From contig JAUSNJ010000130.1 of NCBI GenBank assembly GCA_030645355.1, forward strand, positions 1 through 64,000: 64,000 bases of DNA, given 5' to 3'. The position numbers and the translations under genes were made by a program. The DNA comes from Rhodoferax sp. Its GTDB lineage: Bacteria > Pseudomonadota > Gammaproteobacteria > Burkholderiales > Burkholderiaceae_C. The notes beneath the pieces are model-generated. The model made no database searches and was not told where the DNA came from. It saw nothing but the letters and a program-made list of their open reading frames with translations. The first letter of the stretch is position 1. Every line of letters starts with the position of its first letter. Shown one piece after another: positions 46,949 through 63,913 of this stretch.

Positions 46949-46959
46949 TGTGTTATTTG

Positions 46960-46971
46960 CGTCAATTGACG
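46960..46971. promoter_or_regulatory. 12-bp palindrome before the AAA ATPase gene
   Basis: CGTCAATTGACG is a perfect palindrome 11 bases ahead of the ATPase ATG, in an AT-rich pocket (TGTTATTTGCGTCAATTGAC). It is a candidate operator. It lies downstream of the stop of the 47002 gene. Confidence 0.4.
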
Positions 46972-47001
46972 AATTTTGCGCAATGGACCGCATTGCGACC
47001 C

Positions 47002-48096
47002 TCAGGACGGCAAAAAGTCCACCGGCCAGGTCACCACCATCTGCTCCACATCCTTGGCCGAAAAGTCAAACATCCGCACGCGTGCCAGCAGCTTGGCTTC
47101 CAGCTCCGGCGTCTTCAGTTCGCTGGAGACAATGCGGCACTCGATGACGTTGCCGGCGGGCGCAATTTTCAGTTCCAGCACCACCTTGCCCTGCAGGCCG
47201 GGCTCATCGCGCAGCGCCCGGTTGTAGATGGCGTAGATGGCGCCCTTGTTGCGCTCAAAGACCAGCTTGATTTCTTCGATGGAGCGCGAGGCCTTGCCGC
47301 TGCCGCTGCGGGCCAGCTTGCCGCCGGGCCCTGCACTGCCCGCGCTGCCAAACCCACTGCCGCTGCCGTCGCCCTTGCCGCGTGCGCCACCGCCACCGGG
47401 GCCGCCGCCACCACCACCGCCGACCGCGCCTTCGACCAGCGTCGTGGCGCGTCCGGCCAGACCGCCGCCGCCGGCGTTGTTGCTGTAGCTGGCGGTGTTG
47501 ATGCCGCCGCTGCCACTGCTGGCGTTGGAGGTGATCAGTGCCCGGGTCGGGATGCCGGCGTCCTTGCCCGCACCCACCCCCACACCGACGCCGGTGCCCA
47601 CACCGGGTCCCTGCTTCACCGGGGCCAGTTGCACCGCCAGCGGCGCACCATGCAGTTCGGCCAGGTCCTTGGACATGGCCAACAGCCCGACACCGGCAGC
47701 CTTGCGCCGCGCGGCATCCAGTTCGCCCGCAGCCTTGTTGGGCACGGGCACGCGGGCTTCTGGCACCGGCACCTCCTTGTTGCGGGCGACCTTGCGCGCG
47801 GGCTCCGGCAACCGCGCCGTGGCGGGCAGCGGTTCGGGTTTGCTGGCCACGGGCAGCTTGGGTACGACAGGCGGTGGCTTGGTGTTTTCCAGGATCAATG
47901 TGGCCAGGCGGGGCGGCAGGTCCTGCGCCTTGGAGCGGTCAGGCTGGATGACGGGCATCAGCAGCACGATCAGGCACAGCAGCGTGCTGATGATGAGCAC
48001 CGCCCGGCGCACGCGGGCGAAGCGCACATCGTCTTCGAGTGAGCCGGCCCAGGGCAGCACCGGGGCACGAAAGGAAACCGTCATCGCGGCATTCAT
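47002..48096 (-). CDS. AgmX/PglI-type TonB-like protein
   Basis: A 364-aa inner-membrane protein with one N-terminal span (RRAVLIISTLLCLIVLLMPV), a Pro/Lys-rich periplasmic stretch, a long Gly-rich low-complexity region (residues about 205-290), and a C-terminal TonB-fold-like AgmX/PglI domain (KGAIYAIYNRALRDEPGLQG and ELKIAPAGNVIECRI). It is the expected energy-transducing partner of the ExbB and ExbD proteins encoded upstream. In Myxococcus the AgmX/GltJ protein has this end domain and links the motor to the envelope. The ATG at 48096 follows GGAGGTTATCC. It is the last gene of the locus. Confidence 0.82.
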   Translation of the reverse strand: MNAAMTVSFRAPVLPWAGSLEDDVRFARVRRAVLIISTLLCLIVLLMPVIQPDRSKAQDLPPRLATLILENTKPPPVVPKLPVASKPEPLPATARLPEPARKVARNKEVPVPEARVPVPNKAAGELDAARRKAAGVGLLAMSKDLAELHGAPLAVQLAPVKQGPGVGTGVGVGVGAGKDAGIPTRALITSNASSGSGGINTASYSNNAGGGGLAGRATTLVEGAVGGGGGGGPGGGGARGKGDGSGSGFGSAGSAGPGGKLARSGSGKASRSIEEIKLVFERNKGAIYAIYNRALRDEPGLQGKVVLELKIAPAGNVIECRIVSSELKTPELEAKLLARVRMFDFSAKDVEQMVVTWPVDFLPS

Positions 48097-48157
48097 TGGA
48101 TAACCTCCGTGCTGCGCACTGCGGTGCGAGCTTGCTTGGGGCGGCCCGGCGCGGCGC

Positions 48158-48655
48158 TCATGATTCCAACCTCTGGCGCACCGCAAAGGACACATCACTG
48201 AAGTTGGCACGGGCACTGGTGACCATGATCTTGCGCAGCAGCCGGTAGGGTATTTCCTTGTCGCCCATGATGGTGATGCGCTTGCTCAGTGCCTCGTTCT
48301 CGGTGCGGATGACCTGGCGGCTGGACTGCAGCAGGTCGAGCTCGGCCTTCAGCGGCTCGACCAGGTCCGACTCCTGCGCCAGCACGTCACTGACCGACGC
48401 CACCTTGCGCCCATCGACCAGAATCTCGGAGCCGCTGACGATCACCACCACCGTGTCGCGCGGTGTGGTCTCGGCGACCGATTCGGGCAGCAGCACGGCC
48501 TTGGGGCTGGGCAGGGTTTCGATGCCACCGGAGTTGCTGAGCAAAAAGAAGATCAGGATGGTGAACACGTCGATCAGCGAGACCAGGTTCATGTCGACCA
48601 TGTTCTGGTGTCGGCTGCGCCGTTCGGCACGTTTTTGCAGGGGAGTGAGTTTCAT
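48158..48655 (-). CDS. ExbD/TolR biopolymer transporter, Asp-containing
   Basis: A 165-aa ExbD/TolR family protein with one membrane span (MNLVSLIDVFTILIFFLLSN). D29 in SLIDVF matches the essential proton-pathway aspartate. The periplasmic domain follows (VVIVSGSEILVDGRKVASV and VTIMGDKEIPYRLLRKIMVTS-like). Together with the ExbB protein it should convert proton flow into movement. Its start overlaps the stop of the other ExbD gene by four bases (ATGA), giving translational coupling. Confidence 0.9.
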   Translation of the reverse strand: MKLTPLQKRAERRSRHQNMVDMNLVSLIDVFTILIFFLLSNSGGIETLPSPKAVLLPESVAETTPRDTVVVIVSGSEILVDGRKVASVSDVLAQESDLVEPLKAELDLLQSSRQVIRTENEALSKRITIMGDKEIPYRLLRKIMVTSARANFSDVSFAVRQRLES

Positions 48656-49146
48656 GGCGTGCGGGTCGGCGCGTCACCGATGGAAATATTGGGGAACAGC
48701 TCGGAGCGCACCACCTTGTCGCCCTGCGCCATGTGACCGGCGCGCACGGCGTCCATCACTTGCACCAGCGTGTCGTATGAGGTGTTGGGCTCGGCCAGCA
48801 CGGTGGCGTCCAGCTTGTCGGGGAAGCGGGTCTTGAGCTGCTGCACCAGCCGGCCCAGGGCGCGCACATCGGGCCCGGTGGGCGTGGCCGCAATGCGCTC
48901 GATCAGCCCGCCGGTGCGGTCGCCCACTTCCAGCGCTTCGGCGCGCACCACCACTTCCAGTTGCAGGTTGTCGGCCGTGACGTGCTCCAGCGCACCGGTG
49001 TTTTGCGCCGGCAGCGTCAGGTCAATCACCGAGAGGCGGGTGAAGACGGCGGTGGACAGCAGGAACGGCACCAGCACCACGATCAGGTTGATGAAGGCGG
49101 TGATCTCCAGATGCGCCGCAGTTTTGCGAAGGCGTCGGGGTTTCAT
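48652..49146 (-). CDS. ExbD/TolR-like protein lacking the proton-relay Asp
   Basis: A 164-aa protein of the ExbD/TolR family by length, N-terminal topology and operon position. In the membrane span (EITAFINLIVVLVPFLLSTA) the place of the invariant Asp is taken by Asn (N20), so it cannot carry the protonation cycle itself. It probably pairs with the Asp-containing protein encoded directly after it as an asymmetric stator. The periplasmic part contains LVQQLKTRFPDKLDATVLAEPNTSYDTLVQVMDAV, a normal ExbD pattern. Confidence 0.85.
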   Translation of the reverse strand: MKPRRLRKTAAHLEITAFINLIVVLVPFLLSTAVFTRLSVIDLTLPAQNTGALEHVTADNLQLEVVVRAEALEVGDRTGGLIERIAATPTGPDVRALGRLVQQLKTRFPDKLDATVLAEPNTSYDTLVQVMDAVRAGHMAQGDKVVRSELFPNISIGDAPTRTP

Positions 49147-49153
49147 GCTGGGC

Positions 49154-49822
49154 TCAGTGCGCCTTGGCGCCGCCTGCAGCCGACTGTTCGGCCGTGATGC
49201 GCTGCACCAGGTTCAGAAAGCTCATCTTGGCGGCCTCCAGACCGTCGACGATCTCGCTGGTCTGGGCCTGCAAGAAGGCATGGATCAGTAGAAAGGGAAT
49301 GGCCACCATCAGCGCAAACGCGGTGTTGTTCATGGCGATGGAAATACTGGCCGACAGCAGCTCGGCCTTTTCGGCCGGGTTGACCTGGGCCACCGCGGTA
49401 AAGCCCTTGATCAGGCCGATGATGGTGCCCAGCAGGCCCACCAGCGTGATGACGTTGGCAAAGGTGGCGATGTAGTGGGTGCGCTTTTCCAGGCGGGGCA
49501 CGATCTCCATCATGCCTTCTTCCATCGCGGCGTCGTAGTCTTCGCGGCGCCCGGGGCTGAGCATGCGGGTCAGGCCGTAGTTGACGATTTTCCCGACGGC
49601 CGAATCCGACGTGGCGGTCAAGGTTCGCACTTCCTTGAACATGCCCTGTTGCAGCAGCGGCAGGGTCTGCGCCCAGACCGATCGGTTCTGGCTGCGTGCC
49701 TTGTTCAGGAAAATGAAGCGCTCGATGGCGATGGCCAGGCCCAAGGCCATGATGAGCACGCTGGGGTAGATGAAAAGTCCGCAGTCCTGAAAGAACTTGA
49801 TGGCTGTGTCGAATGCATTCAT
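49154..49822 (-). CDS. MotA/TolQ/ExbB proton channel family protein
   Basis: A 222-aa inner-membrane protein with three spans: residues about 12-35 (FIYPSVLIMALGLAIAIERFIF), 105-130 (ANVITLVGLLGTIIGLIKGF) and 150-175 (SISIAMNNTAFALMVAIPFLLI). The conserved TolQ/ExbB channel signature (LLGTIIG...F) is intact. It should form the pentameric part of a proton-driven motor with the two ExbD proteins encoded just downstream. Start ATG 49822 follows a GGAG site; an upstream extension in the frame would be non-homologous. Confidence 0.92.
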   Translation of the reverse strand: MNAFDTAIKFFQDCGLFIYPSVLIMALGLAIAIERFIFLNKARSQNRSVWAQTLPLLQQGMFKEVRTLTATSDSAVGKIVNYGLTRMLSPGRREDYDAAMEEGMMEIVPRLEKRTHYIATFANVITLVGLLGTIIGLIKGFTAVAQVNPAEKAELLSASISIAMNNTAFALMVAIPFLLIHAFLQAQTSEIVDGLEAAKMSFLNLVQRITAEQSAAGGAKAH

Positions 49823-49865
49823 GGTGGCTTGCTCCGGTGAAAAATAGGTGGGGTGGCTTGAAACG

Positions 49866-50210
49866 TTACTTGGCGGGTGGCGTCGCGGCGGGCGGTTGCG
49901 CGACAGCTGTGGTTGCGGTTGCGTTGGCACGGGCTAGCCCGTCGTAGCGCACCTCACGGCGCACCACATCGCGGTCCAGTGGAGCCAGCGCCTCGTCCAG
50001 CACGCTGACCAGCGGACGGCCGGACAGGTCGCCGGGCAGGGGTTTCTTCCACGGGACGATGTACAGCACCTTGGGCAATTCGCGGTTGCCGGTGATGCGG
50101 GTGCGGTCAATGTCGGCGCGGTCCTGCGCAAACAGGGGCGTGTTGGCGCCCACGACCATGATGAGGGACACGGCGACGGCACTGGCAATCCGCTGGTTCA
50201 CATGGCTCAT
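49866..50210 (-). CDS. Small exported hypothetical protein
   Basis: A 114-aa protein with a signal peptide (NQRIASAVAVSLIMVVGANTPLFAQ) and a short mature part (ITGNRELPKVLYIVPWKKPLPGD, DEALAPLDRDVVRREVRYDG) ending in an Ala/Pro-rich tail. No family is recognised. The ATG overlaps the previous stop by four bases and follows GGAGAAAACACC. Its position between the TPR lipoprotein and the ExbB gene suggests a periplasmic component of the same complex. Confidence 0.72.
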   Translation of the reverse strand: MSHVNQRIASAVAVSLIMVVGANTPLFAQDRADIDRTRITGNRELPKVLYIVPWKKPLPGDLSGRPLVSVLDEALAPLDRDVVRREVRYDGLARANATATTAVAQPPAATPPAK

Positions 50211-53002
50211 GGTGTTTTCTCCGGTTGTTGCTCTGCCTTTTTGTATAAACCTGGGCGCAGTTGCCGCAGGGCATCTGCGCTGCGCTGTATCCACGGGTCC
50301 TGGGGGGCGCTGGCGGCGCGCTGCACATTCAGGGTGTGCACGTCGGCCGCCTTCTCTTCGAACGGAAAGGCCTGTTCCTCCAGCAGCACGTCGTACTGCT
50401 CGCGCTCCAGCTTGCTCAGCTTCTTGGGGCGCTGAGAGGTTAGGAGTGCCTTGCCAAAGTCGCTGTAGACCAGGGCAATGCGGTAGCTGGCCTCGGTCGT
50501 GATATCGGCCACGCCGTAGTCGGTGGCCACGGTGTAGGCCTTCAGGGCGTCTTCCATCCTGGCTTTCTTCAGCTTGAGCTGCTTTTGCAGCGGCTCGGTC
50601 AGGGCCACCTTGCGGTAGATCTCGGCCACCGGTTCTGCCAGCGCCAGTGCGGCCGTGGCGCCCAGGTAGCGGGTGCGGTCGGTACGGGCGCTGCCGCCCG
50701 CCTGGTCCGCCTGGAAGATGTCTTTCATCAGCGCCAGGCTGCGGGTGAGGTTGTGGTCTTCCTGGGCGATGCGCGCCAGACGCCAGCGTGCCTCCATGGC
50801 GGCCTCCAGCGGCTGCGGGTTTTGTGCCAGGTAGCGCTCGTAGGCTTTGGTGGCCTGGGGGCGTGCGTTGGCTTTTTCGTGCAGTTCGGCTGCTTGCCAC
50901 AGGGCGGTGCGGGCAATGGCCGGGTCCTTGTGCGTTGCGGCCATGCGCTCGAATTCCGTTGCCGCACTGGCCCATTGACCCTTCTCCACATAGACCACGG
51001 CCAGCTTGCCGCCGACCTCGGCTTGCAGCGGGCTTGCGGAAAAGCGCTTGCGGAAATCTTCCAGCGTGCGGGCGGCTGCATCCCAGTCCTTTAGCGCGAT
51101 CAGTGCGGCGGCGGCGTCGTACTGCGCGGCGGCCTGTACCGGCGATTGGGGCGTCGCCGTGCTGGCCACACGCTCGAAATGCGTGACGGCATCGCGTGTC
51201 TGCCCCGCTGCAATGGCCTGCTCGCCCTGCTTGTAGATGGCGGCGGCCTGGCGCTCCACCAGGGCATCACGCCCGGCGGCCTTGTCCGGCGTGAGCTGGA
51301 GCACCTGGCCATAGGCCTTTTCAGCGCTGTCAAACGCACCGGCTTCAAACCGGGTGTGGGCCAGCACGGTCCAGGCCACGCGGCGCTGTGCATCAGGCGC
51401 GGGCGGTTGCAGGTCCAGCACCTGCTGTGCAACGGTAGCCGCCTGTTGCGGGTCTTTCAATGTGTACAGGGTTTGCGCGGCATCGGCCAGCACCGGTGCG
51501 GCGCGCGCATCGCTGCCAAAGGTCTGCACAAAGCGCAGCGCACTGGCCACGCCGGCCTGTTGCAGGGCGGGCAGTTCCGCACCGCTGGATTTCTTTTGCT
51601 GCTGTGCATAGGCCAGCAGCGCGGCATAGCCCGCGTCTGCGCTGGCGGCGTGCACGGGATAGTCATAGGCGGTCTTCTCGTACTCGGTGATTGCCGCTGC
51701 AAACTGTGCATCCTCAAACAGCAGCTCGGCCAGCAGAAAGTTGTTCTGCGCGGCTTGCGCATCGCTTGGGAAGGCGGCCAGGTAGTCGCGGTACCAGCGC
51801 ACGGCTTGCTGGTAGTCGGCGCTGGCCTTGCTCTTTTGTGCGCTGGCGTGGTAGTGGCGGGCCAGCTCGGCCATATGGGTCTGGACCAGGGGCTGCGCCT
51901 TTTGCCAGCCCTCGGGGTTGCTCTGGCGAAACGCGCTGGTGCTGCCGTAGCGGGCCACGTACTCTGTCTTGGCCTCCAGCGCCAGCGTGGCAAAGCCATT
52001 GCGCTCGTAGACCGCAACCACGCGCGACTGAAACAGTGGCGCCTGCGCATCCAGCGGGCGGGTGCGCGCGAACAGTGCAAAGGTGTCGGCGGCATCCTTG
52101 ACGCGCTCTTGCTTGAGGTACAACTCGCCCAATTGTTCGTAGACGCGGAATGCGTAGGCCTGGCGTTCGGGTGACGCGATGTAGGGTGCAATGGATTCCG
52201 CACCCTTGAGGTTGGTCAGGCTCAGGCTGGTGACGCGAAACGTATCCTCGACCAACTCGCGGTCGGCCCGGCTCAGTCCGTCCAGCGTTTCCAGCGCGCC
52301 GTCATCGGTACGACCGCCGAGCTTCAGATCCAGAACGCTGAAGAACGATTGCACAGCTTCATCGAGTTTGCCCTGTTTGAACTGTGACCAGCCCTGCATG
52401 TACAGCGCACGGTCGTGGTAGCGGCTGGCGGTGCCCTTTTGCAGCACCGTGGCATAGGCCTTCTCGGCGGATGCGTAGTTGCGCGCGGTAAACAGCAGTT
52501 CACCGCGGCGGAACTGGGCCTCTTCCTGGAGTGCGGTTGCCGGGTAGTCCTTGACCAGGCGGTCCAGCGTCTTGAGTGCCGCTTCCAGATCGCCTCCCTG
52601 CTCCTGCGCCCGGGCCAGCTGGTACAGCACGCGGTCATTGCCAGGGCTGTTGGGGAAGGTCTTGAGCACGTCCTGGTAGCGTGCGGCGGCGGCACGGTAG
52701 TCGGGCGCGCCCGTGGCCTGCGCGTCTTCGCTGCGGATGTCGGCGCTGTCCATCTCCAGGTCGCCGATGCGGCGCATCGCCTCTTCGCGCTGCGGCGCGC
52801 GGGGAGCGACCGCCAGAAAACTGTTGTAGGCGGCAATGGCCTGAACGGGCTGGATGGGCGTGCCCGGGTCCTTGACGACGTTCACCGTGCGGCCCGCCAG
52901 GGTTTTGAGCGTGGGCTCGTTGTCCGGTGTGCCACGCTGCTTGCCGGCACAGGCGGCCAGCAGGCACACCATGAGCAAGCTGATATTAAGGTTTGGTCGC
53001 AC
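50207..53002 (-). CDS. TPR-repeat outer-membrane or periplasmic lipoprotein
   Basis: A 931-aa lipoprotein: after a GTG start and short signal, the lipobox LLAAC places the lipidated cysteine at C18. Nearly the entire mature protein is tetratricopeptide-like (for example AYNSFLAVAPRAPQREEAMRRIGDLEM, LYQLARAQEQGGDLEAALKTLDRLVKDYPATA and FEAGAFDSAEKAYGQVLQLTP). The residue after Cys is Ala, not Asp, so outer-membrane sorting is likely. It resembles GltE-like TPR lipoproteins of the Myxococcus gliding machine in type. The GTG at 53002 is chosen by GGAGG six bases upstream and because the lipobox begins there. It overlaps the preceding gene by 17 bases. Confidence 0.83.
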   Translation of the reverse strand: MRPNLNISLLMVCLLAACAGKQRGTPDNEPTLKTLAGRTVNVVKDPGTPIQPVQAIAAYNSFLAVAPRAPQREEAMRRIGDLEMDSADIRSEDAQATGAPDYRAAAARYQDVLKTFPNSPGNDRVLYQLARAQEQGGDLEAALKTLDRLVKDYPATALQEEAQFRRGELLFTARNYASAEKAYATVLQKGTASRYHDRALYMQGWSQFKQGKLDEAVQSFFSVLDLKLGGRTDDGALETLDGLSRADRELVEDTFRVTSLSLTNLKGAESIAPYIASPERQAYAFRVYEQLGELYLKQERVKDAADTFALFARTRPLDAQAPLFQSRVVAVYERNGFATLALEAKTEYVARYGSTSAFRQSNPEGWQKAQPLVQTHMAELARHYHASAQKSKASADYQQAVRWYRDYLAAFPSDAQAAQNNFLLAELLFEDAQFAAAITEYEKTAYDYPVHAASADAGYAALLAYAQQQKKSSGAELPALQQAGVASALRFVQTFGSDARAAPVLADAAQTLYTLKDPQQAATVAQQVLDLQPPAPDAQRRVAWTVLAHTRFEAGAFDSAEKAYGQVLQLTPDKAAGRDALVERQAAAIYKQGEQAIAAGQTRDAVTHFERVASTATPQSPVQAAAQYDAAAALIALKDWDAAARTLEDFRKRFSASPLQAEVGGKLAVVYVEKGQWASAATEFERMAATHKDPAIARTALWQAAELHEKANARPQATKAYERYLAQNPQPLEAAMEARWRLARIAQEDHNLTRSLALMKDIFQADQAGGSARTDRTRYLGATAALALAEPVAEIYRKVALTEPLQKQLKLKKARMEDALKAYTVATDYGVADITTEASYRIALVYSDFGKALLTSQRPKKLSKLEREQYDVLLEEQAFPFEEKAADVHTLNVQRAASAPQDPWIQRSADALRQLRPGLYKKAEQQPEKTP

Positions 53003-54914
53003 GGCCGGCCTCCGGTGCAGGGGTAGTGCGCTCCGCGGCCCGGTCGATATTGCGGTCGGTACTGCGGTCATAGAGCTGCGCCAACGCAAAGCGTGCCTGG
53101 GTGGAGTACATGCCCAGACGTTCCTGTTGGCGCGCCAGTGCGGCGACGGCAATGCCTTGCACCGCCTGGCGTTGTTCCTTGCTGAGTGCGGCCACACGGG
53201 GCAGCATGGCATCGATCACCGGACTCATGGCTGCAATGCGCTGGGCAAAGGCGTCAAAGCGCACCGGCTCGCCGCGTTGGGCCTGGGCCAGTGCCGCGTC
53301 CAGGCGCTGCGCGGTGGCGAGTTCGTCCAGCACCGTCTGCAGTTGCTTCTTGGCCTGCCAGACCCGCCCCGGGTAGTCCTGGGCCAACTGCCAGGTGAGT
53401 GCCCCGGCGGCCAGGCGTGCCCGATTGCGCGCGGTTGTGGATTCGGCGGTGTCGGGTGCGCCTTTCAGTGCCGTCTGCACCTGGTTCACGCGGCCCAGCA
53501 AGGCGAGCTGTTTGGCATCGGCAAAGGCCACGCCGTCGGCGGCGGTCTCACCGGCCGCGACCAGCGCACTGGCCGACGCATGGCGTTGCTGCAGCGGGCC
53601 GATGGCAATTTCGCTGGCGCGCTGGCGGACCTGCGGCAGCCGTTCGGCAAAGGCCTTGCGGCGGTTGGCCAGCATGTCGTCAAACACGCTGAGCTTGTCG
53701 CGCCATTCCTGCAGATTGCGGGTGAGGAACAGCAGGTCGCGGTAGTTCTTCAAGGCCTCCTGGAATTCATGCTGTGCCAGCACCGTGGCCAGGTGGCTGG
53801 GGTGGGGCATGTCGGGCAGTTCACGCACGCCCCAGAACCAGCCCATCTCGTCGCCCGGGTTGCGCTCCACCAGGGCATTGATCAGGGTACCAGTCTGGAT
53901 CGCCGCAATCGATTCATCCAGGGCCGTGGACTCGCGGGTGAAGGTGGTGATGGCCTTCTCGTAGCCCTGGGCAGCTTGCCCGTAGGCGCCGAGTTCGGCA
54001 TACGCGTAAGGCACGGCGATATGGGCCTCCAGTACGGCCGAGTCGGAAACGTCGCGCTGCATGAGTTCCATCCAGGGCACCAGCGCCTGTGCGGATTCCT
54101 TGCGTGCGGACGCGGCCCAGCCCAGGCCCAACAGGGCCTTGTTAGCCTGCGGACTCTTGAGGCGCACGCGCTCCAGGTAGGTGCCGGCTTGCAGCTGGCG
54201 GTTGTCTGCCAGGGCGGCAAAGCCCAAGGCCACGTTGGCGCGGTCGCGCAGGCCTCGGTATTCCTCGTCCTCGGCCGTCGCACGGCCCAATTCGTCCAGC
54301 ACCGCTGTGCCGCGATCGGTTTCACCGGCCTTGATCAGTGCAATGCCCAGGTTGTAGCGGGCGTAGCGTGCACTGGGGGCCTTGTTGTCCACGGCGGCCA
54401 GTGTGGTGGCCGCGGCCGCATAGTCACCGCGTGCCATCTGCACATGGGCTTGCAACAAGACGCGATCCTCTTGCAGTGCGGGGGGCAGGGCATTGCCAAT
54501 GCGTGCCAAGGCGTCCTGCGCCTCGGCGAGGTAGCCGCGCTGGTAGCGGATTTTGGCCAGGAAATACCAGGCGCGGTCGCGGGTGGCTGGCGTGGCGCCC
54601 ATGTCAATCAGGCGCGTAAACAGGTCACCGGCCTGGCGGTGCAAACCGTAGGACAGCAGAATGCCGCCGCGCAACACCTCTGCCTCTTCGGCGTGGTGCG
54701 AGACCCGGCCAAAGTGCTGTGATGCCATCAACTGGGTCAGTGAACTGAAGTACTGCTCCTGGAAGTACTGGTACAGGGTGTCGCCGTAGTACGGGTCTTT
54801 CACTTCACCCGACGGCTCGGCCCGCAGGCCGGTAGCGCACGTCAGGGTCAGCGCGGTACCCAGGGCCAGCAGCCAGGGACGCGGGACCAGACGGGGGGGC
54901 AATGGCAGGCGCAT
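52986..54914 (-). CDS. TPR-repeat periplasmic protein
   Basis: A 642-aa exported protein with a signal peptide (PWLLALGTALTLTCATGLRA). The first 300 mature residues are TPR-like (LQEDRVLLQAHVQMARGDYAAAATTLAAVDNKAPSARYARYNLGIALI and following); the later half is rich in helices and coiled coil. It corresponds in type and position to GltD-like TPR proteins. A GTG at 54941 overlapping the previous stop as GTGA is an alternative start; ATG 54914 gives a better signal peptide. No enzyme motif is evident, so a scaffold role is most likely. Confidence 0.8.
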   Translation of the reverse strand: MRLPLPPRLVPRPWLLALGTALTLTCATGLRAEPSGEVKDPYYGDTLYQYFQEQYFSSLTQLMASQHFGRVSHHAEEAEVLRGGILLSYGLHRQAGDLFTRLIDMGATPATRDRAWYFLAKIRYQRGYLAEAQDALARIGNALPPALQEDRVLLQAHVQMARGDYAAAATTLAAVDNKAPSARYARYNLGIALIKAGETDRGTAVLDELGRATAEDEEYRGLRDRANVALGFAALADNRQLQAGTYLERVRLKSPQANKALLGLGWAASARKESAQALVPWMELMQRDVSDSAVLEAHIAVPYAYAELGAYGQAAQGYEKAITTFTRESTALDESIAAIQTGTLINALVERNPGDEMGWFWGVRELPDMPHPSHLATVLAQHEFQEALKNYRDLLFLTRNLQEWRDKLSVFDDMLANRRKAFAERLPQVRQRASEIAIGPLQQRHASASALVAAGETAADGVAFADAKQLALLGRVNQVQTALKGAPDTAESTTARNRARLAAGALTWQLAQDYPGRVWQAKKQLQTVLDELATAQRLDAALAQAQRGEPVRFDAFAQRIAAMSPVIDAMLPRVAALSKEQRQAVQGIAVAALARQQERLGMYSTQARFALAQLYDRSTDRNIDRAAERTTPAPEAGRATKP

Positions 54915-54937
54915 CGGCGTTACTTCTACGGTCACTG

Positions 54938-55498: not shown

Positions 55499-55925
55499 TC
55501 GAGATTTTCCATTGGGAAGTTGATCGTCTTGCCGACGGTTCAGGGTAGGCATTGCATTCATTTCTTGCGGTACGGGTTTTGGCGGGGCCGGTGGTCTGGC
55601 GGGGTCGGTGAGCCGGGTATCCCTTCTCTGGCCCACGCTCGCGGGCGTAGGCAGTAGGCACGCATGGGCAGCTGCGTTAACGCGTAGGTTGGCAGGCATG
55701 CTCTGTGGCAACCGCGAATCGGGCCGACGAACGGACACCCGACCCACCGACCTTGCGGTGCGTGGTGGCGAGCGCTACAAAATACATAGCAGCATATGTC
55801 TATTTCACGGGGGCTAGAAGCCCGTTTTGCTCGTCGTCTCTCCCCAACACCTCGCCCCCAAGGCGCCTGCCATGTCGCCCGCCGCGCGCAGTCGTTTCGT
55901 GCGCCAAAAAGATGGGTGGCTTGCA
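55499..55925. other. Gene-free spacer between the two blocks of the 47-64 kb locus
   Basis: No supported gene. A hairpin-family repeat occupies 55774-55816. The rest probably holds the promoter and leader of the block beginning at 55498, but no clear -35/-10 pair was identified. Confidence 0.6.
55774..55816 (-). repeat. Dispersed hairpin repeat, copy G
   Basis: Read on the minus strand: CTAGCCCCCGTGAAATAGAC, then a short imperfect hairpin GCTAT...GTAGC (arms at 55774-55778 and 55786-55790). It is the most degraded copy of the family, placed in the spacer that divides the large locus. Confidence 0.7.
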
Positions 55926-57050: not shown

Positions 57051-57267
57051 AGCCACCCCCTTGCACGCCGGTGGCGCCGCGTGCGCCTTCGCGCACATTG
57101 CGCACGTGTTCAAAATGTTTCTCGGAAAGCGACTCGCGTGAGAATTGCATGATGGGGTCTGCCAGGCGTTCGCGCTCATAGGGCTTGACCCAGGGCTGCA
57201 GGGCACAACCAGTCTGCAAAATTGTGCCAAGCAGGACGGCGGTGGTCAGAAGCGTGCGGTCCGTCAT
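57037..57267 (-). CDS. DUF4266 small lipoprotein with Gly/Cys tail
   Basis: A 76-aa protein. An N-terminal hydrophobic signal ends in LLGTILQTGC, an imperfect lipobox with Cys at 21. The family segment KPYERERLADPIMQFSRESLSEKHFEHVRNVREG is clear. The C terminus is GARGATGVQGGGCGCN; the GGGCGCN end is characteristic of DUF4266 and could bind a metal or cofactor. The GAT triplet partly resembles ApbE flavinylation sequences, which is suggestive only. It overlaps the TlpA gene stop (ATGA) and the next gene's start. Confidence 0.85.
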   Translation of the reverse strand: MTDRTLLTTAVLLGTILQTGCALQPWVKPYERERLADPIMQFSRESLSEKHFEHVRNVREGARGATGVQGGGCGCN

Positions 57268-57797
57268 TTCAGAAGCCCCCGGATCTCTTTGTCGTAAATG
57301 TCTTCATATCCTGCGAGGTAGCCGGGGTGGATGTGGCGCACCCGACCGTCCCGGTCGATGAGAACCGTGGTGGGCATGGTGCCCAGGTCATACAGGCGGC
57401 TGACCGCCTTGTCGGTGTCCAGCAGCACGGGAAATTTGAGACCCAGCTTGGCGGCCACATCGGTCGCACGGTGCGTGTCGTCGTCGATGTTGACCCCCAG
57501 CAGCACAAAGCCTGCCGAGCGGTATTTGTCGTATAGCTTGTTCAACTGCGGCATTTCCTGGCGGCAGGGCCCGCACCAGGTGGCCCAGAAGTTGATCAGC
57601 ACCACCTGGCCGCGCTGTTCCTGCAGGCGCAGATTGGTGCCGGCAGCGGTGCGTAGCGTGAAGTCGGGCGCGGGGGCGCTGGGAGCGACCGCGGCCAGGG
57701 CGGGGCCGGCCACCGCACTGAGCAGGCTGAGCACCGCCAGCCGCCGGGTGTGGCGGGGCTGGGAGCGTGAGGGGAAGGGCAGGTCCATGGGCATCAA
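57264..57797 (-). CDS. TlpA-like periplasmic thioredoxin
   Basis: A 177-aa exported thioredoxin-fold protein with the redox motif WATWCGPC (C75, C78) and the family's cis-Pro segment (GTMPTTVLID). The N terminus has a signal with adjacent arginines (HTRRLAVLSLLSAVAGPALA). Such proteins act as thiol reductants or oxidants, often for cytochrome c or copper-site maturation. In this locus possible targets are the noncanonical haem-binding cysteines of the neighbouring lipoproteins or the CGC end of DUF4266. It overlaps the DUF4266 gene by four bases. Confidence 0.9.
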   Translation of the reverse strand: MMPMDLPFPSRSQPRHTRRLAVLSLLSAVAGPALAAVAPSAPAPDFTLRTAAGTNLRLQEQRGQVVLINFWATWCGPCRQEMPQLNKLYDKYRSAGFVLLGVNIDDDTHRATDVAAKLGLKFPVLLDTDKAVSRLYDLGTMPTTVLIDRDGRVRHIHPGYLAGYEDIYDKEIRGLLK

Positions 57798-57809
57798 CGG
57801 GTCCGAATC

Positions 57810-58454
57810 TCAAAAGGCAGCCGTAAGGCCAATCGTGAACTCCAGGTTCTGCGTGGTCTGGTTTTTGCCCAGCAGATCGAGGGAAAAGATGTGGTCGCGG
57901 GCATCGATCTGCACCGAGAAGGTGTCGTTGAAATAGACCCGCAGTCCCGAGCCGAAGTTGAACGTGGAGCGGCGTTGCTGGTTGAACGAGGTGCTGCCGA
58001 CCCCACCAATCACGTACAGCGAAAACGGCCAGGCGCGTGTAGTGCCAAAGAACACCTCGCCGGGCAGCACGTTGTAGCCCACCGACAGGTTGTAGTAGCT
58101 CAGGTTCTCCAGCTCGGTGGCAAAGATCCCGCCCGGGAGAATCTGCCGGTAGTTGGTGTCACTGACCTGGGTTTGTGCCACCACTGCCTCGGCGAAGAAA
58201 TCTTCGGTGATGTGGTAGCCCAAGCGCAAGCCACCGACTGCGCTGGAGCCAAAATTTTGCGTGGAGTAGGTGCCGACAAAGGCGCCCAGCTCAAAGTCGT
58301 TCGACGGAAAGCGTGGCAGGCGCACGTCCCGCCGGGTGACGCCGGGCACGATGACCTGTTCGGTGGGCGGTGCCGGGTCGGCGGCGTTGGCACAGATGCC
58401 ACTTGCCGCAGTGACAAGGGCCAGAAGAAACTTGCGGACAGGTAGTGGGCGCAT
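57810..58454 (-). CDS. Outer-membrane beta-barrel domain protein
   Basis: A 214-aa protein with a signal peptide (KFLLALVTAASGICANA) and an eight-stranded barrel pattern, including ELGAFVGTYSTQNFGSSAVGGLRLGYHITEDFFAEAVVAQT and the terminal strand ending LEFTIGLTAAF. This type, first noted in myxobacteria, resembles the GltA/GltB group. It lies 12 bases downstream of the TlpA start region's other side, between TlpA and the SH3-barrel protein, and is probably part of the outer-membrane portion of the assembly. Confidence 0.83.
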   Translation of the reverse strand: MRPLPVRKFLLALVTAASGICANAADPAPPTEQVIVPGVTRRDVRLPRFPSNDFELGAFVGTYSTQNFGSSAVGGLRLGYHITEDFFAEAVVAQTQVSDTNYRQILPGGIFATELENLSYYNLSVGYNVLPGEVFFGTTRAWPFSLYVIGGVGSTSFNQQRRSTFNFGSGLRVYFNDTFSVQIDARDHIFSLDLLGKNQTTQNLEFTIGLTAAF

Positions 58455-58464
58455 GGGAAAGTCC

Positions 58465-59253
58465 TCAGAAGAAAAAGGAGAGTCCGGCCGTTACGGCCCG
58501 GTATTCGAGCGAGCGGGTGTCGGAGACAAATGCTGTGTAGAACGTGTAGTCACCGCGCAGCACAAAGCGCTCGGTCAGGTAGTAGCGCACACCGACGCTG
58601 GCGTTGGCCAGCTGTGCGTCCGTCGGGCTGGCACCGACCAGGCTGGGGTTGGGGATGTTCTTGAACTTGCCCAGCCCCACGCCAAAGAACGGCGAGATGC
58701 GCTGGTCGGACCAGGGCTCGGACAGCACGTTGACGTGCCAGAAGTCGGTGCCGGAGAAAACCCCCTGCACCTGGCCCAGCGTGCCCTCCACATGCAGCGT
58801 CTCCGACAGGCGGTAGCTGCTCCAGAGCTTGAGCATGGGTTCCGACTTGAACTGGCCCCAGGCTGCACCCAGCTGCACGCGCCGGCTCAGATAGTCGTCC
58901 AGCAGCATGTCGCGAAAGGTCTTGGTGTCGCCTGCGGTGGTGAGTGTGGATTCCAGCTGTTTGCGCTGCACCCAGCCGACCTGACCGCCAACGGCTCGGA
59001 CCTTGAACCAGTCGGTATGGCGCAGCTCAATGCTGATCCACTGCTCACGCGGAGCCACGAAAAAGATTGGAAAGCCCCGACCAGGGCCGGTATGCAGCTC
59101 GATATAGGGATCGGTGATCTGCACGCGCTCCGCACGCTCGTTGGGTTCGGCAGGATCGGCCGCCCGGGCCAGTGGCGTGCCCAGCACGGACAGCGCCACG
59201 ACAACGGTGGCGAAAACGCTGCGTGCGTGGCGCACTTTCATTGGGTGTTGCAT
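58465..59253 (-). CDS. SH3-domain plus outer-membrane beta-barrel protein
   Basis: A 262-aa exported protein. After a signal peptide (ATVVVALSVLGTPLARA) there is a bacterial SH3-like domain (about residues 40-105: QITDPYIELHTGPGRGFPIFF, QWISIELRHTDWFKVRA and GQVGWVQRKQL), then a small barrel similar in type to the neighbouring 214-aa protein (LHVEGTLGQVQGVFSGTDFWHVNVLSEPW, ending AVTAGLSFFF). The SH3 part could contact peptidoglycan, and the barrel would sit in the outer membrane. The gene overlaps the haem-motif lipoprotein gene by 16 bases. Confidence 0.85.
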   Translation of the reverse strand: MQHPMKVRHARSVFATVVVALSVLGTPLARAADPAEPNERAERVQITDPYIELHTGPGRGFPIFFVAPREQWISIELRHTDWFKVRAVGGQVGWVQRKQLESTLTTAGDTKTFRDMLLDDYLSRRVQLGAAWGQFKSEPMLKLWSSYRLSETLHVEGTLGQVQGVFSGTDFWHVNVLSEPWSDQRISPFFGVGLGKFKNIPNPSLVGASPTDAQLANASVGVRYYLTERFVLRGDYTFYTAFVSDTRSLEYRAVTAGLSFFF

Positions 59254-59858
59254 GTGCCGCTCTTGGGGTCTGGTGGGGTGAACATGCTGTAGCTGGCCGT
59301 GCTCAGTTCATCGTGGCCAACGGGTACCGGACGGCTGATCCAGTACTTGATGAGGCGTGCGTTGGGATCGTCTTCGCTCAAAAAGATCAGACCACCGCCA
59401 TGCAGGACACCGCGCAACAGCGGCTTGGACATCAGGCGGCTCTGGGCGGTCGAGCCGATCACCACCGCAGCCTGGGCGGAGTAGAAGTTTTTGTACATGT
59501 CGCTGGCGCGCACCACGGCCGGTGTGTTGGCCGGATCACTCAGGTCCAGCGGTTGCGCCGCCGGGAATACGCGCAGTGCCCCGCCGGTGCCAGCGTGGGT
59601 GTCGTGGCATCCGGACCCGGCACAGGTGTTGGTGGAGGTGGTACCGCCGATTTGAACCGGCAGTTGGGCCAGAAAGATCGGGTTGATGCACTTCTGGAAA
59701 TAGGCAAAGGAAAGGTACTGGCCCCCCACCACTTCGGGGTTGCGGATGGTGGCCGGGTTGCCCAGCACGTCCGAGCCGCCACCGCAGCCGGCCAGCGTCA
59801 GGGTAGCGGCCACGGTGAGCGTGGTGGCCAGGGATTGTGTGATGCGTTGCGGGGTCAT
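59238..59858 (-). CDS. Lipoprotein with CX4CH haem-like motif
   Basis: A 206-aa lipoprotein (lipobox TLAGC, Cys at 25). A CAGSGCH motif (C79, C84, H85) is a possible c-type haem attachment site with four residues between cysteines instead of two. It lies in a segment otherwise like the C-terminal part of HzsA-type proteins (YFQKCINPIFLAQL and VRASDMYKNFYSAQ). It directly follows the HzsA-like gene (eight bases) and may be its haem-binding partner. No enzyme class can be assigned. Confidence 0.78.
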   Translation of the reverse strand: MTPQRITQSLATTLTVAATLTLAGCGGGSDVLGNPATIRNPEVVGGQYLSFAYFQKCINPIFLAQLPVQIGGTTSTNTCAGSGCHDTHAGTGGALRVFPAAQPLDLSDPANTPAVVRASDMYKNFYSAQAAVVIGSTAQSRLMSKPLLRGVLHGGGLIFLSEDDPNARLIKYWISRPVPVGHDELSTASYSMFTPPDPKSGTCNTQ

Positions 59859-59865
59859 GAGGGGG

Positions 59866-62832
59866 TCAGCAGCCGGTGGCAATCCATTGCGAGATTGCGT
59901 TGTAGTTCGCGCTGCCCACCGGCAGAACGGCCGGGTGGGGCGCGGTCGATGGCCGTTTCAGCAGTGCATTGGCGGGTGGGTTGCAGGTGTTGGAAACCAT
60001 GGACAACGTGGCGTTGTAGTCACCATCGGCGTCGCCGGTCAGCACGAAGTGGTTGTTGAGAAACGAGGTGCCCGACGGGGTGGCTGCGGCACTGCTGCCG
60101 ACCGGCTGGTGGCAACCCGCGGAGCAGGTGGTGCGCAGGATGGGGAAGACTTGGGCTTCGAAGCTGGCCTGGCTCAGGCCCTTGACCTGGCGCACCGCGC
60201 TGTTGGCGTCAAACGGGTCGTTGTAGTACTTGCTGCCCAGGTCTATCCACTCGGCAATCAATCGCTTTTCCGCACGGGTCAGCAGCTTGGCGTGGTCCGG
60301 CGCCGTGGCGGGTGGGTTGGGATGTGCGGTGCGCGAGCCGGTGTCAGCCATCAGGTTTTGCCCGGACAGAATCTCCACGAGCCGGCTCTTGCGGGCCAGG
60401 CCCAAGGCTTCGCCTTCGCTGGCGGCGGTGTCCACCAAGGGCGCGCCGCGCTCGACGACGAGGACACCTGCCTGGGTGCGGGTGCGTGGCTGGCCGGTGA
60501 CCGGGTCGATGATGGGGTCGCCAATCATCAGCTCGTCGTAGGACGTGATGCGTCCGGAGCCACCCACCGTGCCGCTGAGGTCCAGCTTTGCGGGATCAAA
60601 GTGGCACGTGGTGCAGGTGTTGGCGCCGCGGTTGCGGCTCCACAGGGGCTGGATGTGGTCGGGGTAGTTGACGATGCCGTTCACGGGTGCCGCGGTGGCA
60701 AGATCGTCGGCGGCAATGGGGTTGCCGGTGTAGCGCGTGGTCAGTGCAGCGCGGCCGGTCACACCCGGCTTGCTGGTGTCGGCCCAGATGTCCGAGAACA
60801 CCATGTCCGTGGACAGCTTCAGCGCGCTGGGGTCCAGGCGGGTGCGGGTACTGGCCATGGTTTCGCCGGACTGGTGGGCGCTGGCCATGGTGGGTAGCCA
60901 GGACGCTGGAACCGTGTTGACGACGGCGCCCGAGTTGATGGCGCCGCCGCGGCGTGGGCTGTGGCAACCGTCGCAGGTGCGGCGTTCGCCGGGGCGCACC
61001 TGGATCCAGTTGGTGTGGGTCTGGAATCCGCGCCCCTGGGAATCCACAACGGTCAGGCCGATGGGCGTGTCTGCGGGCACTTGCAGTTTGAAGGAGCCGT
61101 CGGGCTCAATCGGCGCATAGCCCAGAATCTGTTGCATCTCGAAGTTGGTTTCGCCGATGGCACTGCGCGTGCCGGTCATGCCCTGGGGTGGCGCAATGGC
61201 GCGAAAGGCCCGGATGAAGCGTGCCGGGGCGCAACCATAGGCCGGGTCAGCCGGGTTTTTCATGCGCACCAGGTCGGCAATCAGGGCGCGGGTGTCCTGG
61301 GGGTCGATTGGTGCAATCTTGGGAATGGCGGTGGTGCAGCCTGTCGGCAAATCGGCGGCCGTCAACACGGCGTCGCCCATGCGGCCCAGGCCATCGGTGT
61401 CGTAGACACTGCGCACTTCCAGCAGGCCCAGGTTTTGCGCGGCCAGATCGGGGTCCAGCGGCGTGGGCGGTGTCGCGTTGGGCTCCGCACGCGCCTGCAG
61501 GGCCACGGGGTGGGTGTACATGAATCCGGCCGGTGGTGCCGCCACGATCAGCAGGGTCTGCTTGGCGGGGTCGAACATGTAGATGGCGTAGGTCGGGCGC
61601 ACATTGTTCTGAATCTCGTCGGCCTGTACGTCGGCCCTGGCGCGGTTGTCGTCCGCGACGCGGGCCAGTTCTTCGGCGGTCAGCGTGGCGCACGAGACCA
61701 CGACCCCCTTGCGCGTCACTTCACAGGGCGTGTAGCCAATCAGCACGCGGTCGGTGCCGTCCCACAGCGGGTAGGGCGTGGTGATGCGGCCAAAGGGCGA
61801 TGCCCCGCCACCAATGTTCAGCTCCTGCAGGGTCATCTGCTGCTGGCCGCCCTTGGCCGGTGCTGAGGCGCTGGCGGGTGTGTCCTGCTCGGAGTAGTTG
61901 GCGGCATCGATCATGACCAGGCCGCCGCCTTCATGCGTGCGCGACAGCGGCATCAGGTCCGACGTCAAAAACCCCTTGTACTTGCCCTTGGGGTCCATGT
62001 CCCGGGGGTGTAGAAAGCTGTTGCCGGGGCTGTGTGCGCCATACAGCACAAACAGGTCGGTGCCATCGGGCTTGGCGCGGAAGATCTTGAAGTGGTTGCG
62101 TCCGCCCACGTGGTCCCAGCGCGAGAACATGATGTCGCCGTTGGGTCGGATCACCGGGCTGCGGTCATGGCTCTGGTTGACCGAGATCTGGGTGATGGCC
62201 TGGCCGTTGGCGTCCATGGTGTGCAGGTTGAAAACCCGCTCCCGTTCGTACTCGTCCAGTGCGAAGTAGGTGTGGCCCAGCGCCTGGTTGATGCTGGACT
62301 TGGTCTGGCGGTTGGACGTGAAAACAAAGCCGCGCCCGGCTGGCAGGTAGGTCGGGTCCACGTCGTCGGATTCGGTGGAGCTGGTCAGGCGGCGCAGGCT
62401 GCCACCGGCCAGGCCGCCGGCCGTCATGTCGTATTCCCAGATGTTCCAGCGCCCGGTGCAGGCGCGCTGCCCATTGATGGTGCCAGTGTTGGTGGCAGGG
62501 CAGCGCAAAGAAAAAATGATCTTCTTGCCGTCATACGACACATCGGGGTTGGAGGCATCGCCAACACCTTGGGTGATCTGTGCCGTGATGTTGTGCTCTT
62601 TGGCGCTGACTGATGACTTTTCGCGCACCATCAGGTCACCACCCGGCGCGGTGGGTGCCGCGTTGGTGGGGTTGGCGTTGATGGCGTTGGAGCGCATGGC
62701 GTAGGCAATCGGTGCATCACCGGCCACCGTGACGGTTTTGCTATCGTCCGTGCTGCCATTGCCGCAGGCGGCGAGGAAGCTTGTGAGCAGGGCAGCCGTC
62801 GCCCCTGCGCTGATGAACAGTCGCTGTGTCAT
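59866..62832 (-). CDS. HzsA-related PD40/c-haem lipoprotein
   Basis: A 988-aa lipoprotein (lipobox FLAAC, Cys at 23). Residues about 85-300 form PD40/TolB-like beta-propeller repeats (NPDVSYDGKKIIFSLRC and DRSPVIRPNGDIMFSRWD). A middle domain follows, of the type found in hydrazine synthase alpha. Three cysteine-His motifs follow: CDGCH (H624), CTTCH (H744) and CSAGCH (C903, C907, H908). The first two are standard CXXCH haem sites; the last has three residues between cysteines. The organism is not an anammox bacterium as far as can be seen, so hydrazine synthesis is not implied. The enzyme may be a secreted haem-dependent oxidoreductase. Confidence 0.85.
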   Translation of the reverse strand: MTQRLFISAGATAALLTSFLAACGNGSTDDSKTVTVAGDAPIAYAMRSNAINANPTNAAPTAPGGDLMVREKSSVSAKEHNITAQITQGVGDASNPDVSYDGKKIIFSLRCPATNTGTINGQRACTGRWNIWEYDMTAGGLAGGSLRRLTSSTESDDVDPTYLPAGRGFVFTSNRQTKSSINQALGHTYFALDEYERERVFNLHTMDANGQAITQISVNQSHDRSPVIRPNGDIMFSRWDHVGGRNHFKIFRAKPDGTDLFVLYGAHSPGNSFLHPRDMDPKGKYKGFLTSDLMPLSRTHEGGGLVMIDAANYSEQDTPASASAPAKGGQQQMTLQELNIGGGASPFGRITTPYPLWDGTDRVLIGYTPCEVTRKGVVVSCATLTAEELARVADDNRARADVQADEIQNNVRPTYAIYMFDPAKQTLLIVAAPPAGFMYTHPVALQARAEPNATPPTPLDPDLAAQNLGLLEVRSVYDTDGLGRMGDAVLTAADLPTGCTTAIPKIAPIDPQDTRALIADLVRMKNPADPAYGCAPARFIRAFRAIAPPQGMTGTRSAIGETNFEMQQILGYAPIEPDGSFKLQVPADTPIGLTVVDSQGRGFQTHTNWIQVRPGERRTCDGCHSPRRGGAINSGAVVNTVPASWLPTMASAHQSGETMASTRTRLDPSALKLSTDMVFSDIWADTSKPGVTGRAALTTRYTGNPIAADDLATAAPVNGIVNYPDHIQPLWSRNRGANTCTTCHFDPAKLDLSGTVGGSGRITSYDELMIGDPIIDPVTGQPRTRTQAGVLVVERGAPLVDTAASEGEALGLARKSRLVEILSGQNLMADTGSRTAHPNPPATAPDHAKLLTRAEKRLIAEWIDLGSKYYNDPFDANSAVRQVKGLSQASFEAQVFPILRTTCSAGCHQPVGSSAAATPSGTSFLNNHFVLTGDADGDYNATLSMVSNTCNPPANALLKRPSTAPHPAVLPVGSANYNAISQWIATGC

Positions 62833-62847
62833 GGTGGTGTCTCCTGG

Positions 62848-63849
62848 TTACTGTCGTGTTTGCAGGCCGGGTGCCAGCAAGCCGGTGGAGTAGTGCAGAA
62901 GGCCGTGCGCATCGACGACGACCGCGTCGAGTCCGGGTTGCGACTCGATGAACTGCATGCCCTTTTCGACTCCCAGGACAAACACGCATTTGGAAAACGC
63001 TTCGGTGGTGAGACCGTCCTCGCCCAGAATAGTGACGCTTTGCACGCAGCTCGGTGACAGGCCGGTGGCCGGGTCTATCAAGTGGTGGAAGCGCACACCG
63101 GCCTCAACGAAGCAGCGCTCGTAGTCGCCCGAGGTTGAGATGGAGGTGTCTTCCAGCGGCAATACCGCAACGACCTCTCCGGGGCGGCGCGGATCACGGA
63201 TACCAATGGTCCAGGGCCGGCCGCGGCGGTCGCCCATGACGCAGCTGTCCCCACCGGCGCTGACGTTGGCGTGCCGTATGCCCCGCTGGCGCAACAACGC
63301 GGCCGCGTTGTCAATCGCATAGCCTTTGGCAAAGCCACCCAGGTCTATGCACATGCCCGGGCGCTCGAACTGTACGGTCTGGTTGTGCCGGTCCAGAATC
63401 ACGTGGCGGTATCCGATGGCCTGCTGCGCCTGGGCTAGCGCCTGCGGGTCGGGACGTGTGTGCAGGCGGTAGTCGAACAGACGGCCCACTGCTGCGTAGG
63501 TGATGTCGAAGGCGCCGTCCGAGAGCTGCGAAAAGTGCGCCGCGCGGGTTAGCAGCTGGAACATCTCGGTGCTGATATGCACGGCTTGCGTGGCGGCATC
63601 GCGGTTGATGCGCGACAGTTCGGAGTCCGGCCTGTGGGGGCTCATGGCGTGGTCGATACGGTGCATCTCCTGCATGACGGCCTCCATCGCGGCGTCGCCC
63701 GCCACGCGGTCTTCAGCCCACAGCTCCACGTGGATGGCCGTGCCCATGATGGCCTCTTCCCGCCGCAGCCAGCCGCTCTGGGGTGTGTGCTGCGGGGAGC
63801 CGCCCGCGACGAATTTGCGTGTGGCGATATCGCGTGAGGTACCGAACAT
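62848..63849 (-). CDS. apbE: FAD:protein FMN transferase
   Basis: A 333-aa ApbE-family enzyme, which attaches FMN from FAD to Thr/Ser of extracytoplasmic target proteins. Family segments are MGTAIHVELWAED, ISTEMFQLLTRAAHFSQLSDGAFDITYAAV, IDLGGFAKGYAIDNA, NVSAGGDSCVMG, and HHLIDPATGLSP with TTEAFSKCVFVLG (metal and FAD sites). The sequence has no signal peptide or lipobox, unlike most ApbE proteins, so the modification may occur before export or the protein may be cytoplasmic. The ATG at 63849 follows AGGAG. It heads the 17-kb locus. Confidence 0.9.
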   Translation of the reverse strand: MFGTSRDIATRKFVAGGSPQHTPQSGWLRREEAIMGTAIHVELWAEDRVAGDAAMEAVMQEMHRIDHAMSPHRPDSELSRINRDAATQAVHISTEMFQLLTRAAHFSQLSDGAFDITYAAVGRLFDYRLHTRPDPQALAQAQQAIGYRHVILDRHNQTVQFERPGMCIDLGGFAKGYAIDNAAALLRQRGIRHANVSAGGDSCVMGDRRGRPWTIGIRDPRRPGEVVAVLPLEDTSISTSGDYERCFVEAGVRFHHLIDPATGLSPSCVQSVTILGEDGLTTEAFSKCVFVLGVEKGMQFIESQPGLDAVVVDAHGLLHYSTGLLAPGLQTRQ

Positions 63850-63913
63850 GGTGGGGGGCTCCTGAGGTTCGCGCCGATTCTTCCATCCAAGCACGCCCAA
63901 AGTGTTCGTTTGC

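Follow-up and report, generated by a model that had tools for sequence, protein, structure and literature searches.

Two kinds of described system come closest to the locus reported here; the three papers on them are cited from the portions of their text available to us. In Myxococcus, a single Agl motor serves both the Glt complex of gliding and the Nfs complex of sporulation, and the D28N substitution in AglQ abolishes proton conductance (PMC3858216). Gamma- and Betaproteobacteria carry the Glt core as a gene cluster with an extra gene, its function there being unknown (PMC3169522). In the second kind of system, flavin mononucleotide (FMN) is attached to DUF3570 proteins at two [S/T]GA[S/T] motifs, and genes for ApbE, DUF3570, a thioredoxin and DUF4266 form clusters with or without DsbD (PMC8238504); a text search of the main text of that paper found no mention of ExbB. 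We analyzed a 64,000-nucleotide stretch of Rhodoferax sp. DNA (contig JAUSNJ010000130.1), called the window below, in which sixteen minus-strand genes at positions 47002–63957 join a Glt-type motor core to a redox block of haem, thiol and DUF3570 proteins. These genes very probably constitute one system that has not been described before. Each half has already been described separately (PMC3169522; PMC8238504), while their pairing is new as far as a search of the open-access PubMed Central (PMC) literature shows, no paper on the combination having been found in the part of the search results viewed. The name DUF3570 was met in a single paper of that literature.

All the named parts are present in the window. 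In gene order, apbE and the redox block come first:

62848–63957, minus strand: apbE, FAD:protein FMN transferase family (FAD, flavin adenine dinucleotide; PF02424, 273 bits); start codon unsure.
59866–62832, minus strand: probable lipoprotein resembling the alpha subunit of hydrazine synthase (HZS-alpha), hereafter HzsA-like protein (PF18582, 68 bits), with beta-propeller, haem middle domain and second haem.
59238–59882, minus strand: small probable lipoprotein with a CX4CH haem-like motif read from the sequence.
58465–59253, minus strand: SH3-like domain plus outer-membrane beta-barrel; Pfam and NCBIfam matches weak and below cut-off, family conserved.
57810–58454, minus strand: outer-membrane beta-barrel of the TIGR04565 (OMP_myx_plus) type (140.5 bits, cut-off 60).
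57264–57797, minus strand: exported thioredoxin of the TlpA/ResA type with WCGPC (family matches and sequence).
57037–57267, minus strand: DUF4266 small probable lipoprotein with a C-terminal CXC (PF14086, 79.4 bits).
55926–57089, minus strand: DUF3570 protein of divergent type, predicted 16-strand outer-membrane barrel (PF12094, 131 bits); exact start unsettled, open reading frame (ORF) to 57230.

The core then follows:

54938–55747, minus strand: conserved 25-kDa periplasmic protein of the Glt-type core, recognized by alignment, no Pfam family; likely start about 55498.
52986–54941, minus strand: TPR protein of the core (family matches).
50207–53212, minus strand: large TPR protein with tol_pal_ybgF-type repeats; real start probably downstream.
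49866–50210, minus strand: small conserved protein between the TPR protein and ExbB (conservation; no family over cut-off).
49154–49822, minus strand: exbB, proton-channel protein of the ExbB/AglR type (PF01618, MotA_ExbB, 84 bits); start set by conservation, ORF to 49930.
48652–49146, minus strand: ExbD1, a transmembrane Asn replacing the usual Asp (PF02472).
48158–48655, minus strand: ExbD2, with transmembrane Asp29 (PF02472).
47002–48096, minus strand: GltG/AgmX-type protein with a TonB-like C-terminal domain (NF033768, 61 bits, cut-off 40); start estimated, ORF to 48216.

A sequence-only reading of this DNA had listed sixteen same-strand genes with these named parts, and the family matches within the window bear it out. 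It had counted two outer-membrane barrels; there are three in the set, DUF3570 itself being a predicted barrel.

We hold the sixteen genes to be one system because the block depends on the core, and not because of apbE. The dependence was measured in a sample of 369 genomes from the class, with cut-offs of E 1e-9 for the AgmX/GltG tail, 1e-6 for DUF3570 and 1e-40 for the HzsA-like profile. The HzsA-like profile was found in 52 genomes, and AgmX/GltG in 49 of these as compared with 85 of 369 overall (Fisher 5e-34); at the genus level the figure is 39 of 42 (the 39 counted by hand; p 3e-26). Where HzsA lies beside DUF3570, 45 of 46 genomes have AgmX/GltG. By contrast, where DUF3570 lies only at other places, 26 of 49 genomes have it, which corresponds to an odds ratio of 5 vs. 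318. As for DUF3570 as a whole, it occurs in 95 of the 369 genomes and in 71 together with the AgmX/GltG tail (Fisher p 1.4e-40); 128 DUF3570 places were entered, and 12 lower-scoring rows, all from genomes already counted, were left out. In 25 AgmX–DUF3570 pairs the two genes share a contig at a distance of 9 to 22 kb, and the DUF3570 is in each case a lower-scoring, divergent one. The dependence is one-sided: nearly all genomes of the sample that carry the block also have the core, and the core is found also without the block.

The gene order was then compared among relatives. Among the source genome and 100 relatives, the AgmX/PglI tail exceeds the cut-off in three of the 101 (G000, G022, and G003), and the strongest HZS_alpha matches are in the same three. 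G022 holds the set in order, at 82–97% identity over the 15 genes measured, the small protein being recognized by profile; in G003 the set is likewise present, interrupted by a contig end within the large TPR gene. Both genomes belong to the genus. Outside the genus, 18 further genomes of the class were chosen because AgmX and DUF3570 lie on one contig: five hold all 16 genes, in six the small haem lipoprotein alone is missing, and seven lack more, partly due to ends of stretches or contigs. The proteins of these genomes are mostly 30–60% identical to those of the window, the extremes being 23% (a TPR protein) and 68%.

A set of named loci was also anchored on the best 80 of 567 relatives of the window DUF3570, so that the rates obtained apply to its close relatives. 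Nearest among the named relatives, at 54–56% identity, come a pair of records from Rhizobacter and one metagenome-assembled genome (MAG) of Burkholderiales; the hosts among these 80 include Marinobacter, Thioalkalivibrio, Candidatus Thiodiazotropha, symbionts of Lamellibrachia and Escarpia, Rhizobacter, and many MAGs. In the 59 loci with at least 6 kb upstream, the SH3-type and TIGR04565-type outer-membrane proteins, TlpA and DUF4266 are present in 59 of 59 and HzsA in 58. Of the 58 loci that extend 9 kb or more downstream, 30 have ExbB within the stretch and 26 GltG. The apbE gene takes three positions: it precedes HzsA, it separates DUF3570 from the core, or it stands at the core edge, with HzsA some 6 kb and DUF3570 some 11 kb away on the opposite strand. 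On a tree of ExbB, adjacency to the block is clustered, with 7 changes against a shuffled mean of 17.4 and none of 500 shuffles as low; in this tree L250 is labeled as lacking the block only since its contig ends at DUF3570, and L130, L132, and L049 were relabeled by hand as having it. The viral contigs searched yielded no relative.

Several observations weigh against the view of a single system. The sample contains related genomes, and its p-values therefore overstate independence. In 25 of the 49 genomes HzsA and AgmX/GltG are not within 30 kb on one contig, some perhaps through contig breaks. HzsA occurs without AgmX/GltG in G134, G167 (95% complete), and G287 (86%); G134, which is 100% complete, has a short HzsA-like protein and no DUF3570. 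No ExbB appears within the 9 kb downstream in 28 of the 58 named loci. Eight fetched blocks have both TPR genes and no ExbB, all eight genomes having AgmX/GltG elsewhere; these loci (L154, L156, L157, L159, L160, L161, L166, and L169) show the block, the 25-kDa protein and both TPR genes, with no ExbB, ExbD or GltG in the stretch. A Glt-type core is often found without a redox block (e.g., L140–L149). Finally, model matches give no clear assignment of the TPR proteins to GltC, GltD or GltE: the 16 members of the core TPR family give one weak GltC and one weak GltE match, and the 13 of the large TPR family one weak GltE match.

An alternative would be two independent modules that co-travel by shared inheritance or transfer and have no joint function. 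The 25 genomes that hold the halves apart and the cores without a block are in line with it. However, AgmX/GltG accompanies the HzsA–DUF3570 pair in those 45 of 46 genomes wherever it is placed, apbE crosses the border between the halves, and the association survives several rearrangements; this alternative is thus disfavored and scarcely credible. Inertia of shared descent alone is likewise disfavored by the dependence counts; both the genus-level figure and the conservation of gene order at low identity argue against it. The sequence-only reading had named as a test of its claim whether the halves are mostly apart in other genomes. The test was run and does not refute the claim, 49 of the 52 HzsA genomes holding AgmX/GltG and 24 of the 49 holding both within 30 kb on one contig. 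That the halves belong together is supported by this co-occurrence and by the presence of apbE in either half; the 25 unlinked genomes and the cores without a block qualify it. The further proposal of the sequence-only reading, that proton-driven force serves the export, assembly or operation of a redox protein, stays a hypothesis.

Block-less cores were illustrated by 20 AgmX-anchored stretches, picked mostly for having no DUF3570 on the contig and hence giving no frequency. Nine genes found next to cores without the block encode GatB, an amidase, SpoT, kinases of the PRK and PfkB types or a Sel1-repeat protein, or belong to no recognized family. An additional TPR gene of about 210–260 amino acids separates the large TPR gene from that of the small protein in 42 other loci (e.g., L234:7873-8562); the window has no room for it.

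As to the layout in the window, the host contig measures 167 kb in an assembly of 4.45 Mb and 197 contigs that is 88% complete. Most adjacent frames share a few bases or are separated by about 15 bases at most, some starts being unsettled. There is one clear gap of about 0.43 kb, from the DUF3570 stop (55926) to the likely next start (about 55498, estimated from the alignment); this segment, 55498–55926, has no called gene and splits the locus exactly at the border of redox block and motor core. A simple scan of 55500–56000 detected no sigma-70-like promoter on either strand. With the gap and this result, the locus may form one or two transcription units. The next gene downstream on the same strand, 45731–46993, encodes an AAA domain; it was dropped as a part of the locus, being shared among the fetched loci with G022 only.

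The core itself holds ExbB and two ExbD-type proteins in one cluster, an arrangement expected of a Glt/Agl core. Transmembrane Asp is found in ExbD2 in 68 of 68 rows, while ExbD1 has Asn at that place in 68 of 69; this unlike pair suggests, at the level of sequence, an asymmetric motor pair. The GltG/AgmX-type family is matched by the GltG model in 15 of 15 and by the GltJ model in 13 of 15 members; the window protein scores 30.5 bits with the GltG model, far under the equivalog cut-off of 650, and its AgmX/PglI tail is over the cut-off. The locus is therefore like Agl-Glt and Agl-Nfs of M. xanthus and the Gamma- and Betaproteobacterial Glt core in its clustered ExbB-type, two ExbD-type, GltG/GltJ-type TonB-like and TPR proteins. 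It differs from them by the haem, thiol and DUF3570 block and the outer-membrane barrels, which the available portions of text do not mention (PMC3169522; PMC3858216), and may differ further in having one ExbD without the proton-path Asp. The Allochromatium vinosum cluster Alvin_2248-2252 was tried as a core of this type and set aside: as far as its available description goes, it begins with an annotated outer-membrane receptor, and on this annotation it was read as a Ton-type cluster (PMC11267869).

With the Tol-Pal and Ton systems the locus shares a motor of the ExbB/ExbD class, a TonB-like transducer, YbgF-type TPRs and a TolB-like propeller; in contrast to them it has no recognized Pal or TonB-dependent receptor, and redox proteins are added. 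One could accordingly imagine a Tol-Pal-like force system for envelope upkeep, in which the HzsA-like propeller plays the TolB-like part and its haem senses the redox state. The tol_pal_ybgF repeats of the TPR protein, which are above the cut-off, would suit such a role, and so would the TolB propellers that come next after HZS-alpha among the fold matches. Yet propellers match one another broadly, no Pal/OmpA-type peptidoglycan-binding lipoprotein was recognized among the 16 genes, and a structural role leaves the kept haem and CXC motifs unexplained; we regard envelope upkeep as quite improbable.

The large TPR protein points to another possibility. It matches PorW/SprE of the type IX secretion system (T9SS) in 12 of 13 members, although TPR models cross-match. 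A T9SS-like or Glt-like engine might export the haem lipoproteins to the cell surface, the redox parts only aiding maturation; in other genomes the cargo would also include the divergent proteins encoded near the block, as described below.

The profile of the HzsA-like protein matches hydrazine synthase alpha (PDB 5c2v_A, E 4.4e-20), and its structure model, with a mean predicted local distance difference test score (pLDDT) of 76, matches 5c2v over 957 columns (E 1.9e-29), TolB propellers following. The propeller, the haem middle domain and the second haem of hydrazine synthase alpha are all encountered in the protein, and so are the C-terminal region and two CxxCH motifs. The latter are invariant in 18 of 18 aligned rows, and at least two CxxCH are present in 92 of 94 long block members. 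The two proteins differ in that identity is 16% over the fold match and the window protein is a probable lipoprotein. Family scans recognized no beta or gamma subunit of hydrazine synthase among the 16 genes, and production of hydrazine is not expected. The window copy carries a third haem-like motif, CX3CH, in a C-terminal extension; its group adds this motif and the small haem lipoprotein, a family with CX3CH or CX4CH in 33 of 37 members. Motifs are kept in other redox-block proteins as well: WCxxC is found in 111 of 111 block TlpA proteins and CXC in 110 of 110 DUF4266 proteins, 72 of the 110 having a lipobox-like motif. The DUF3570 model has 16 long strands (pLDDT 90.2; predicted template modeling score 0.85), and its structural matches are generic outer-membrane barrels. 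Sequence searches of the PDB with the DUF3570 and GltG profiles, one protein of the twin-arginine translocation (TAT) type and one monohaem protein returned no match.

The block loci fall into two groups. The small haem lipoprotein is present in 37 of 112, and a divergent gene set is found near 4 of these 37 vs. 56 of the 75 others. This set, upstream of HzsA, encodes a monohaem protein of 413 amino acids near 60 of the 112 loci, a dihaem lipoprotein of the LamG type near 55 and, near 43, a TAT-exported protein of about 540 amino acids. Examples of it are seen in L129, L131, L155, L226, L237, and L256; over the 112 loci it is nearly exclusive with the small haem lipoprotein. The haem proteins may thus be exchanged while the rest of the block stays. 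For the secretion hypothesis these three genes would be further cargo and speak in its favor. On the other hand, sets of TlpA, DUF4266, DUF3570 and ApbE also occur where the profiles detect no HzsA-like or small haem gene (L174–L193), which argues against simple maturation factors and by which TlpA as a cytochrome maturation factor is disfavored too; moreover, no secretion signal or channel was identified. Secretion is, on balance, rather unlikely.

We then considered flavin. In having a TlpA-like protein, a CXC DUF4266, DUF3570 and ApbE together, the window is like the clusters of PMC8238504. It departs from them, as the available text describes them, by its divergent DUF3570 with altered acceptor sites and by the lack of DsbD among the 16 genes, and it adds the HZS-alpha-like cytochrome, two more barrels and the Glt-type motor. 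The published sites are replaced by SNAS and TTAS, Gly being absent from both. Of the 113 block DUF3570 rows, 111 have an acceptor Ser/Thr at each of the two sites, and 111 have the upstream Asp; type-A DUF3570 rows have [ST]G[AS][ST] at site 1 in 23 of 23. In the DUF3570 model, a single loop following the third strand contains or adjoins both S-x-A-S-like sites, on the longer-loop side by our reading.

Other counts are unfavorable to a flavin step. The Gly is kept in 19 of the 113 block rows at site 1 and in 6 at site 2 (10 with four inserted-residue rows); apbE is present in 37 of 112 block loci, in stretches of limited length, and in 18 of 43 block loci with 9 kb on both sides among the best 80 of 567; and the window ApbE has no visible signal peptide or hydrophobic N-terminal stretch. 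Such a stretch is strong in 30 of the 36 block ApbEs with a readable N-terminus, out of 39 copies. In 15 readable ApbEs of ordinary DUF3570 clusters, no comparably strong hydrophobic stretch was seen. Since the Gly is mostly replaced, and absent from both window sites, and apbE was seen in a minority of block loci, flavin transfer at the locus appears doubtful; because of the altered DUF3570 sites and the ApbE without signal peptide, we stop short of calling the locus a proven flavinylation system. Contig C148 of the same genome (L051) carries a second, canonical TlpA–DUF4266–DUF3570–ApbE cluster, whose first acceptor site reads SGAT. The label of an ordinary ApbE/DUF3570 cluster, which had been a candidate for the locus at 47002–63957, fits this second copy instead.

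In 25 DUF3570-type clusters the iron transporter VIT1 is present, and flavinylation has been tied to iron uptake (available portions of PMC8238504). Together with the TonB-like C-terminal domain of GltG, this lends some support to energized uptake, whereby a Ton-like motor would power the import of metal complexes or similar ligands through the barrels while the haem, thiol and flavin parts reduce the ligand at the surface or in the periplasm. But neither an inner-membrane transporter nor the plug of a TonB-dependent receptor was recognized among the 16 genes, and the DUF3570 fold does not decide, as it matches barrels generally, siderophore receptors included. We consider uptake unlikely.

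Comparison establishes the gene set, the predicted folds, the haem and thiol motifs and the co-occurrence. On this basis we favor, as the best of several mechanisms and with about even confidence, an application of proton force to an outer-membrane redox complex. The locus would be one trans-envelope machine made of a Glt/Agl-type core and a fixed redox block, often with apbE. By analogy with Myxococcus, where Agl serves gliding and spore-coat modules, the core would be a general proton-driven motor with swappable modules, and the redox complex at its outer-membrane end would be a third output module beside these two. The electron path, the part of flavin, the coupling of force and the cell-surface location are steps that we infer. 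The periplasmic thiols of TlpA and DUF4266 would exchange electrons with the outer-membrane haem lipoprotein by way of the DUF3570 barrel or alongside it; flavin would join this path if ApbE still modifies DUF3570. The force of the motor, in turn, may place, open or move the outer-membrane redox complex.

As far as the available text shows, the non-gliding Glt core of Gammaproteobacteria was left without a function (PMC3169522), and so was electron transfer by DUF3570 (PMC8238504). A conserved block dependent on the core offers a single testable answer to the two questions. Cultured genera carry the set or most of it: Rhizobacter sp. OV335 (L196) has all 16 genes, and in the stretch from Marinobacter sp. 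BGYM27 (L272) apbE and the small haem lipoprotein were not seen. Symbionts of tube worms and clams are also among the hosts. Should force and electron transfer truly meet at the outer membrane, an ExbBD-type motor would have been found in a new role.

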